Below, one piece after another: positions 5,423-6,997 of a DNA stretch of 13,748 bases. A program made the translations under genes and the position numbers. Position 1 is the first letter of the stretch, and each line of letters begins with the position of its first letter. The notes below the pieces were generated by a model. It made no database searches and was not told the origin of the DNA. It was given only the letters and a program-made list of their open reading frames with translations. Source of the stretch: Actinomycetota bacterium (GTDB lineage Bacteria > Actinomycetota > Thermoleophilia > Gaiellales > Gaiellaceae); NCBI GenBank assembly GCA_005883365.1, contig VAXA01000163.1, positions 1 to 13,748 of the forward strand. The letters run 5' to 3'.

Positions 5423-5503
5423 ATGGCCGCACCCTCCCCGAACGAGTTGCTAGCCGCCCTCGTTCGGGAGCTTGACGCCGAGCACCGTCAGCAGGACGAG
5501 TAG
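5423..5503 (+). CDS. Possible 26-residue small protein with Shine-Dalgarno
   Basis: ATG at 5423 opens a 26-codon frame ending at TAG 5501-5503. The peptide starts MAAPSPNELLAALVREL and continues as a charged helix ending EHRQQDE, so it would be a short acidic amphipathic helix. AGAGGAGG precedes the ATG with GGAGG 4 nt away, one of the best ribosome sites in the window. The last two thirds are antisense to the 3' end of the 95-aa membrane protein gene. No -10 box at leaderless distance is visible. It could be a chance frame; I cannot recognise a family. Confidence 0.25.
   Translation: MAAPSPNELLAALVRELDAEHRQQDE
5434..5470 (-). terminator. Hairpin spanning the stop codon of the 95-aa membrane protein gene
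   Basis: CTCCCCGAACGAG (5434-5446) pairs with CTCGTTCGGGAG (5459-5470) over 12 bp with a single bulged C, around a 12-nt loop that contains the stop codon at 5450-5452. There is no T-tract. Its position at the end of the minus-strand gene suggests a terminator or 3'-end protecting structure. On the plus strand the same arms lie inside the possible 26-aa ORF. Confidence 0.5.
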
Positions 5504-5737
5504 GCCGAGGCCGAGCACCCAGTAGGCGAGGACGCGGCGCGGGTGGCGCGACTCCCGCAGCGAGGAGAGCGCGACCTTCCCCCACAGGAGCACGAGACCG
5601 ACTGCGGCGAGGCCGCCGACGACGATCACGGGCGCGAGAGAGACCGCCTTCTCGAACGGCCACGAGAGCGCCCACGCGGTCAGCGTGACGAGGCCGAGCA
5701 CGGCGACGAGCGCCGCCGCATAGCGGAGTATCCGCAC
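5450..5737 (-). CDS. Small three-helix membrane protein, function unknown
   Basis: This encodes a 95-residue protein that is almost entirely membrane: helices at about residues 6-24, 31-50 and 68-88, with a basic loop KVALSSLRESRHPRRVL between helices 2 and 3 and a short KLPNEGG tail. There are no catalytic motifs. The GTG at 5737 is preferred over an upstream in-frame TTG at 5776, because TACCCT sits exactly 6 nt before the GTG. The TTG would also lie inside the divergent gene. I do not recognise a family; its size and place between the ruv operon and rel are where yajC often lies in actinobacteria, but it has three helices and no YajC pattern. Confidence 0.72.
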   Translation of the reverse strand: MRILRYAAALVAVLGLVTLTAWALSWPFEKAVSLAPVIVVGGLAAVGLVLLWGKVALSSLRESRHPRRVLAYWVLGLGLLVLLTVLGVKLPNEGG

Positions 5738-5743
5738 CGGGCC

Positions 5744-5749
5744 AGGGTA
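5744..5749 (-). promoter_or_regulatory. -10 box TACCCT of the 95-aa membrane protein gene
   Basis: On the minus strand TACCCT is followed by the 6-nt spacer ggcccg and then GTG at 5737. This is a leaderless arrangement. It overlaps the -10 box of the divergent gene and shares its TA pair (5748-5749). Confidence 0.6.
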
Positions 5750-5753
5750 CGCT
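5748..5753 (+). promoter_or_regulatory. -10 box TACGCT of the 152-aa protein gene
   Basis: On the plus strand TACGCT is followed by the 6-nt spacer tcgcgc and then GTG at 5760, the mirror image of the arrangement on the other strand. The two start codons are only 22 bp apart, so there is no room for conventional leaders. Each promoter's upstream element would lie inside the opposite gene. Confidence 0.6.
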
Positions 5754-5759
5754 TCGCGC

Positions 5760-6218
5760 GTGGAAGCGGCCGGCAACTACCACTCCGGCGACGACTACAT
5801 CGTCGAGTTCCTCGGCTACCGCTTCTCCTTCAACAGCCTCGACTTCGAGGAGCGCGTGACGGCCGCCGCCGTCCGGCTCGGGCTCGTTGCCGGCCCCGAG
5901 CTGGACGAGGACGAGACCGCCGACCTCGTCGAGCTCGTCGAGCGCGACGCGATCGAGGTGCCCCGAAGCGCGCTCGGCGAATACCTCGTCCGCCACTGGG
6001 ACGCGCTCGCCCTCGTCCGCGGCGAGTCGCTCGTCTACTGGCTGAAGAAGCTCGTCTTCCGCGGCGCGTGGCTCGATCACCGGGTCAAGGAGGGCCTGCT
6101 GGAGGTGGGATGGGACGACGAGCGACAGGACTTCACGTTTGCGGACACGAACGGCGGCCGCGCCCTGCTGGAGCTCCTCCCCACCCCGAGCTGGCACGAG
6201 CTCCAGTACCGGCCGTGA
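5760..6218 (+). CDS. Conserved-looking soluble protein of unknown function
   Basis: This encodes a 152-residue acidic protein without signal peptide or membrane helix. It begins VEAAGNYHSGDDYIVEFLGYRFSF; the middle is helical and acidic (LDEDETADLVELVERDAIEV) and the end is rich in tryptophan and aromatic residues (SLVYWLKKLVFRGAWLDHRV, PSWHELQYRP). I recognise no family or catalytic motif. The GTG start is supported by TACGCT 6 nt upstream, giving a leaderless mRNA. Its stop overlaps the next start as TGATG, so it is co-transcribed and probably translationally coupled with the 259-aa membrane protein, hinting that the two act together. Confidence 0.78.
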   Translation: MEAAGNYHSGDDYIVEFLGYRFSFNSLDFEERVTAAAVRLGLVAGPELDEDETADLVELVERDAIEVPRSALGEYLVRHWDALALVRGESLVYWLKKLVFRGAWLDHRVKEGLLEVGWDDERQDFTFADTNGGRALLELLPTPSWHELQYRP

Positions 6219-6997
6219 TGCCCGCTCGCCGGTACGCAGTCGTGCTGCCGGCCTACCTGGCGGGGCTCCTCGCGCTCGACACTCAGGTGTCGTTCCGGGG
6301 ACAGCTCGCGCTCGGCGTGCTCACCTTCGCCGTGCTCGCGGCGGCACTCCGGCCGCTTCCGCCGCTCGTGCGGGCACAGGCCGTTGGCGTCGTCCTCTTC
6401 GCGACGGTCGGGGAGGTGACGGGCTCGCTCGTCTGGGGCGTCTACCACTACCGGCTGCACAACCTGCCGCTGTTCATCCCACCTGCGCACGGGCTCGTCT
6501 ACCTCAGCGGCCTCGCCCTGAGCCGCACGCTGCCTGCCCGCATCGTCGTCTGGGCCGCGGCAATCGGCGCCGCGGCCTGGGGCATCGCCGGCGTGACAGT
6601 GCTGCCGCGGTTGGACGTCGCCGGCGCCTTCGGAGTGCCGCTGCTCCTCCTCTTCCTCTGGCGCTCGCGCTCGCGGGCGACGTACGCCGGTGTGTTCCTC
6701 GTCGTGGGAGCCCTCGAGCTTTACGGGACGTCGATCGGGACGTGGCGCTGGGCGCGCGACCTCCCCGGACTGGGGATCCCCGACGGCAACCCGCCGAGCG
6801 GCGTTGCAAGTGGCTACGTCTGGTTCGACGTGATGGCGCTGCTCGTCGCGCCGTGGCTCGTCTACGCCGCCGGCGGGACGCTGAAGCCGAAGCGCTGGAT
6901 TCGATCGTCGGGCGACTTGCTGAGCTCGATCCGCCGCAGGGAGCCGATCGGCACGATGAGCGCGTCGGGCGCGTCGTCGCGCGCGTCCGTCACGTAG
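6218..6997 (+). CDS. Multi-pass membrane protein with an internally repeated motif, function unknown
   Basis: This encodes a 259-residue integral membrane protein with about eight hydrophobic segments (around 7-22, 29-45, 54-75, 83-102, 108-129, 134-148, 155-172, 202-219). Two similar stretches lie about 101 residues apart: E66-x2-G-S...W-G...Y...N82-x-P...PP-x2-G...Y95, and E167-x2-G-T...G-T-W...W...P...N191-PP-x-x-G...Y200. This suggests an internal duplication with conserved polar residues in the membrane. I cannot name the family. The ATG at 6218 overlaps the preceding stop (TGATG). The last 45 residues are antisense to the 108-aa gene and look low-complexity (SSGDLLSSIRRREP...), so the functional protein may end near residue 222. 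Confidence 0.75.
   Translation: MPARRYAVVLPAYLAGLLALDTQVSFRGQLALGVLTFAVLAAALRPLPPLVRAQAVGVVLFATVGEVTGSLVWGVYHYRLHNLPLFIPPAHGLVYLSGLALSRTLPARIVVWAAAIGAAAWGIAGVTVLPRLDVAGAFGVPLLLLFLWRSRSRATYAGVFLVVGALELYGTSIGTWRWARDLPGLGIPDGNPPSGVASGYVWFDVMALLVAPWLVYAAGGTLKPKRWIRSSGDLLSSIRRREPIGTMSASGASSRASVT

Follow-up and report, generated by a model that had tools for sequence, protein, structure and literature searches.

The 10-bp sequence AGGGTACGCT, at positions 5744-5753 and read on both strands, very probably consists of two overlapping -10 elements of the primary sigma factor that start two leaderless mRNAs in opposite directions, an arrangement that we attribute to economy and not to exclusion. The evidence for this comes from the letters themselves, their conservation in relatives, the recurrence of the layout at other gene pairs and spacing statistics of the leaderless type. 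The core lies in a stretch of 13,748 nucleotides (the window) of a 2.15-Mb assembly, which comprises 310 contigs and is 78% complete; the host family is taken to be Gaiellaceae or one near to it (Thermoleophilia).

Architecture of the divergent site

On the minus strand, a GTG start codon (5735-5737, CAC on the plus strand) lies 6 nt from a leftward -10 box TACCCT (5744-5749, a TANNNT that reads AGGGTA on the plus strand), and on the plus strand a rightward box TACGCT (5748-5753, also TANNNT) lies 6 nt from a second GTG (5760-5762). The two codons are separated by 22 bp and both boxes contain the TA at 5748-5749; the sequence-only reading had described all of these letters correctly. Both sides thus have the leaderless arrangement of a TANNNT about 6 nt from the start. 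Judging from the box spacing, the predicted start sites are 5760 on the plus strand and 5737 on the minus strand, 23 bp apart, a distance to be set against the 7-25 bp range in the definition of bidirectional promoters, as given in the available parts of PMC10268837. The common TA would provide -12T and -11A of each promoter in reciprocally paired form, so that by sequence the two -10 elements overlap reciprocally in the sense used in those same parts of the paper. The overlap is 2 bp and not 5, and the site is therefore not in the 18-bp TANNNTA register, in which -7T is paired with -11A.

Between 5400 and 6300 we found no sigma70-type promoters and no terminators, and the window contained no Rfam families or tRNA genes. 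Three weak inverted-repeat pairs, 71-80% complementary, occur at 5650-5850; one arm (5740-5763) covers the core and pairs only 71% with 5672-5695.

The left gene (5450-5737, minus strand) encodes a small protein of 95 aa that looks membrane-like by eye and has no confident Pfam or NCBIfam family. A TTG at 5776 offers a longer reading frame, but conservation favours GTG 5737 as the probable start. The right gene (5760-6218, plus strand, 152 aa) matched no Pfam or NCBIfam family, and its sole match in the PDB (E 0.35) is meaningless; its frame is closed upstream by a TAG at 5721-5723, and GTG 5760 is the first start codon after this stop. The ATG of a second right gene (6218-6997, plus strand, 259 aa) overlaps the stop of the first (TGATG). 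The description of two membrane-associated gene sets fits the left gene and the second right gene, both membrane-like by eye, but not the first right gene, in which no membrane character was seen. From their translations, the neighbours in the window were read as recJ, relA/spoT-like, ruvA, ruvB, ruvC, YebC-like, pdxS and pdxT, of which only recJ was checked against Pfam.

TANNNT as a putative leaderless promoter signal

In the family, TANNNT behaves like a leaderless promoter signal. In five genomes, 107 of 1880 candidate starts had the word 6 nt upstream, compared with 6 of 1880 for the control ATNNNA (sums made by hand; the own-genome contigs in this count had been picked for pattern matches), and the spacing distribution peaked at 6 nt with smaller shoulders at 7-9 nt. 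Among 191 leaderless candidates with a spacer of 6 nt, no -35 signal appeared at this resolution, all columns between -45 and -2 relative to the box staying at or below 0.08 bits. Available passages on other actinobacteria describe frequent leaderless mRNAs whose promoters have a TANNNT box that precedes the start site by 7-12 bp (PMC3898074, PMC4895711), and those on Mycobacterium tuberculosis report no -35 motif at leaderless TANNNT promoters (Cortes et al. 2013, PMC3898074), where a figure legend also calls closely juxtaposed divergent promoters common. In contrast to our candidates, leaderless mRNAs of Streptomyces coelicolor are reported, likewise in a legend, to have both a -10 and a -35 consensus (PMC4895711). 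The sharing of a box between two promoters is not described in the passages at hand on M. tuberculosis (PMC3898074), S. coelicolor (PMC4895711), Deinococcus or Mycobacterium smegmatis.

Eight relatives were surveyed over 1.98 Mb, in contigs picked because they hold the locus of the window or belong to the same long contig. On both strands together, 2541 occurrences of TANNNT were observed where base frequencies predict 12,807, and ATNNNA occurred 7439 times. The word thus lies about fivefold below expectation and about threefold below its control, as if stray -10 words had been purged; the TA dinucleotide is about twofold depleted in the same sequences.

Within the window, eight sites combine TANNNT, a spacer of 5-9 nt and an ORF of at least 60 aa (starts at 2705, 5238, 5737, 5760, 8776, 9301, 10817 and 12670), and all eight lie at credible gene starts. 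The six outside the divergent pair precede genes read as recJ, ruvC, ruvA, pdxS, pdxT and relA/spoT-like, while ruvB, the YebC-like gene and others have no such box. On a practical matter, the boxes could serve to correct start calls, moving recJ to 5238 and the relA/spoT-like gene to 2705 from their longest-ORF starts.

Conservation of the core in the own and nearest genus

We compared 14 loci, 13 from the own genus (g1, own genome included) and one from the nearest genus (g32); three further g1 genomes gave no match to the right gene and so fall outside this set. The rows were aligned by the core word, which is present exactly once in each. All 10 columns of AGGGTACGCT were invariant, as was the CA of the left start codon, and no column was invariant among the six of the left spacer, the six of the right spacer or the 31 leftmost columns. 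At the left start, GTG and ATG replace each other at a constant 6 nt from the box in 14/14 loci, and the right spacer measures 6 nt in nine loci, 7 nt in four and 8 nt in one. Because the core is invariant while the spacers vary and the left start stays fixed at 6 nt, both boxes are very probably real promoters.

This also bears on the idea that only one direction is real, the other box being a chance by-product of near symmetry and the other gene starting elsewhere, which we regard as very unlikely. Symmetric -10 sequences can indeed fire divergently, often producing non-coding antisense RNA, according to the available sections of PMC10268837, and the rightward box also occurs in genomes that have no close left box. 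However, a left start placed exactly 6 nt from its box in every locus, despite varying spacer letters, is hard to reconcile with a by-product, and the left gene carries a TANNNT box of its own in relatives where the two boxes lie 2 bp or 8-10 bp apart.

The invariance of the six N positions is more than TANNNT needs and may reflect an extra constraint, such as a bound protein, extended -10 contacts or the strength of the promoter. In addition, every N in either box would fall within positions -15 to -13 of the opposite promoter, a possible reason why all ten core positions are fixed.

Box spacing across the family

The right gene is present in 90 of the 103 genomes of the family, and its upstream region was read in 89 loci. 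A rightward TANNNT precedes its start by 5-9 nt in 82 of these, and seven have none by the same test. A homologous left neighbour was identified in 70 of 88 genomes, a count that leaves out G086 since the right gene is split there; it falls into two matches (L089, G086:C94:34961-35301), through either an assembly error or a real frameshift.

By an automatic test, the boxes share their TA in 25/89 loci (g1 13, g32 1, g11 7, g12 1, g13 1, g3 2), lie 2 bp apart in 7 (all g10) and lie 8-10 bp apart in 15 (g2 3, g3 6, g4 1, g5 3, g14 1, g29 1), and a close pair is absent in 42. One of these 42, G052 (g14), shares the TA by eye with a right spacer of 10 nt. The gap of the 15 wider pairs, 9 bp in nine of them, is thus near one helical turn. 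In four g31 loci (L064, L066, L067 and L068) the right -10 abuts the apparent left start codon, leaving no space for a left box. We considered an 11-bp deletion between two TA repeats, which would turn a gap of 9 into a gap of -2, and set it aside as an inexact fit, the g3 intergenic regions measuring, by hand count, 33 bp (G013) and 25 bp (G009, G012).

A homologous left gene is present in each genome whose boxes were scored as shared or as 2 bp or 8-10 bp apart; outside those groups, 22 of 41 genomes have one and 19 do not. Since 22 genomes hold the homologous left gene without close boxes by our test, the close double box is not universal for the gene pair. The expectation that relatives with the same genes would conserve overlapping TANNNT boxes is borne out in the 14/14 g1/g32 loci, but it fails in the 15 genomes with a gap of 8-10 bp, in the seven with a gap of 2 bp and in these 22.

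A tree was made from the right proteins of 88 genomes (G086 left out, G052 counted as shared); it rests on few columns and has 23 open forks. The shared state changes 5 times on it, and the starred branches force at least 4 of these changes; dropping the by-eye call for G052 would be expected to remove one. Gains and losses of sharing are indistinguishable on this tree.

The same series speaks to the proposal that the shared TA acts as a regulatory see-saw, its overlap having been selected for alternate or stochastic expression of the two genes. Sharing is kept in all 14 g1/g32 loci with a fully invariant core, and the geometry implies steric exclusion of two polymerases; yet separate boxes serve the same gene pair in 22 genomes (15 with a gap of 8-10 bp and 7 with a gap of 2 bp). 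Moreover, polymerases on starts 23, 26 or 34 bp apart would all sterically exclude each other, so that exclusion would not need a shared TA, starts in related genera being 26-34 bp apart. We consider the proposal improbable. Because the shared state has changed about five times and 22 genomes use separate boxes, sharing seems to be economical and not required.

Recurrence of the shared TA at other gene pairs

The layout recurs elsewhere in the own genome. Over its whole length, the one-sided pattern ANNNTANNNTN{6,7}RTG gave 55 matches compared with 30 for the reversed control, and 10 of 45 distinct one-sided cores were two-sided, against about 2.3 expected from base frequencies (hand arithmetic). 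Nine of these ten have an ORF of at least 60 aa on both flanks and the tenth lies at a contig edge. Allowing spacers of up to 8 nt, we counted 12 shared-TA pairs and one pair in the 18-bp register in own contigs that had mostly been picked for pattern matches. The partner genes, named from sequence, include biotin carboxylase and a cupin, a histidine kinase and a Nei-type glycosylase, RlmN and threonine aldolase, and a PepT-like peptidase and a membrane protein. Several of them begin with familiar N-termini and seem to have unrelated functions, which again argues against overlap selected for alternate expression.

Each of the four pairs checked beyond this locus is kept in part of its relatives. 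Of 16 genus loci given for the histidine-kinase/Nei pair, 10 had a readable N-terminus, and 7 of these 10 have its core ATCGTAGGCT. The PepT-like/membrane core AACGTACACT was found in 6 of 14 genus loci; among 15 biotin-carboxylase/cupin loci of the genus, four have the core ACCATAGACT and two others have AGCCTAGACT. Nine biotin-carboxylase loci have no left start; by eye, five of them have a rightward TAGACT or TAGGCT and four do not. The left A of the core is kept in two of those five and is not there in three, which argues weakly against a left box that arises as a mere by-product of the right one. RlmN was found in 86 of the 103 genomes and its start was read in 26 loci (20 selected plus 6 already in the set). 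Nine of these are two-sided, seven with a partner of the MIDLRSDT type (threonine aldolase) across g1, g10, g11 and g25, and two (G032 and G086) without such a partner. Among the 17 that are not two-sided, five (G096, G050, G043, G010 and G012) retain the left A of the core with no left start; thus, retention of a half-core alone is no proof of a left promoter.

These other loci also allow us to judge whether the core serves primarily as a conserved operator to which a regulator binds, with the promoter reading secondary. Invariant N positions would suit an operator, but each locus has its own conserved core (ATCGTAGGCT, AACGTACACT, ACCATAGACT, ACGCTACCGT), which leaves no common operator word, and the letters common to the cores are those of two TANNNT boxes. 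We find this explanation barely credible, although a regulator specific to this locus is possible.

In the eight relatives, 181 shared-TA cores had a gene start on the right in 36 cases, on the left in 31 and on both sides in 10, three of these ten being the locus of the window itself; ATNNNA-type control cores in the same register gave 11 right, 10 left and none on both sides out of 429. The 18-bp TANNNTA register constitutes a second two-way layout, with predicted starts 18 bp apart at seven gene pairs (22 right, 20 left and 7 both of 83 cores), and all remaining gaps pooled gave 32 right, 40 left and 17 both of 133. This register is smaller than the one in the window and occurs in the same genomes, so the suggestion that a two-way promoter can hardly be smaller than this site does not hold.

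Together, the two sharing registers make up 17 of 34 close divergent pairs. Per core, however, two-sided sites are no more frequent in them (10/181 and 7/83) than at other spacings (17/133), a further point against a switch. Once a core is present, a start on one side is nearly independent of a start on the other (10 two-sided observed, 6.2 expected, p 0.054). The lack of enrichment per core and the near-independence of the sides are evidence against selection for sharing as such. A shared TA as an enriched regulatory design is likewise unneeded, as the excess of close divergent pairs in the -2 and -7 registers follows from the number of such cores.

Proposed mechanism and relation to known bidirectional promoters

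The proposal of two divergent, predicted leaderless promoters that share a TA is supported by the conservation of the core, the 6-nt spacing peak and the recurrence of the layout. The further step of the sequence-only reading, that sharing makes the two gene sets mutually exclusive or stochastically chosen, has not found support: some relatives manage with separate boxes, partners elsewhere look functionally unrelated, and exclusion would extend to 26 or 34 bp as well. In the mechanism that we infer, from start sites and sigma contacts to competition and the absence of a switch, each strand would have one -10 element, whose -12T, -11A and -7T would be used by a primary-sigma holoenzyme, and each predicted leaderless mRNA would begin at the first base of its GTG. 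As TA is palindromic, both promoters would use the same two base pairs as -12 and -11. Two polymerases should be unable to open the site simultaneously; one holoenzyme would do so at a time, and after its escape either direction would be usable again. Both genes could thus be expressed from a single site, the rates depending on each half-core. The layout may have originated because TANNNT is scarce in a genome of 70% GC and no -35 element is apparently needed, so that one TA could serve both strands, and it would be maintained by purifying selection on each promoter and not by a need for exclusion.

The source study on bacterial bidirectional promoters with reciprocal -10 symmetry is reportedly that of Warman and colleagues from 2021. 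A 23-bp bidirectional class was not found in the literature that we searched, though that study may already contain one.

Bidirectional promoters have been defined by starts that diverge on opposite strands at a distance of 7-25 bp, according to the available parts of Middlemiss et al. 2023 (PMC10268837). In most species, the same parts state, 18 bp is the most frequent spacing since -7 and -11 coincide, other arrangements occur as well, and on the Salmonella chromosome such promoters are biased to regions between divergent genes (PMC10268837). Like them, our site has a -10 element on each strand, and the two overlap such that their key bases pair reciprocally. Unlike them, it pairs -12T with -11A at a predicted distance of 23 bp, where theirs usually pair -7T with -11A at 18 bp, and both of its products are predicted to be coding and leaderless, with the promoter and both start codons contained in 28 bp. 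On geometric grounds, only two registers bring A-11 opposite a conserved T of the other box, namely -7T (18 bp) or -12T (23 bp), and both occur in the eight relatives. Bidirectional promoters themselves are already known; what seems to be new here is the 23-bp register with two predicted leaderless mRNAs. A bolder and rather doubtful idea is that this register, with its reciprocal -12T/-11A, represents a distinct, second type of symmetric bidirectional promoter that dominates in GC-rich leaderless Actinobacteria, arose repeatedly by the collapse of back-to-back boxes onto one TA and couples both outputs through forced one-at-a-time opening.

The family offers a natural series in which the same gene pair has box gaps of -2, 2, 8, 9 and 10, and with which it can be asked whether the overlap alters expression or only economises. 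Our findings suggest that 28 bp can be enough for a complete two-way expression unit that includes the promoters and translation starts of both genes, and that one bacterial family uses such a unit repeatedly and that selection keeps it.
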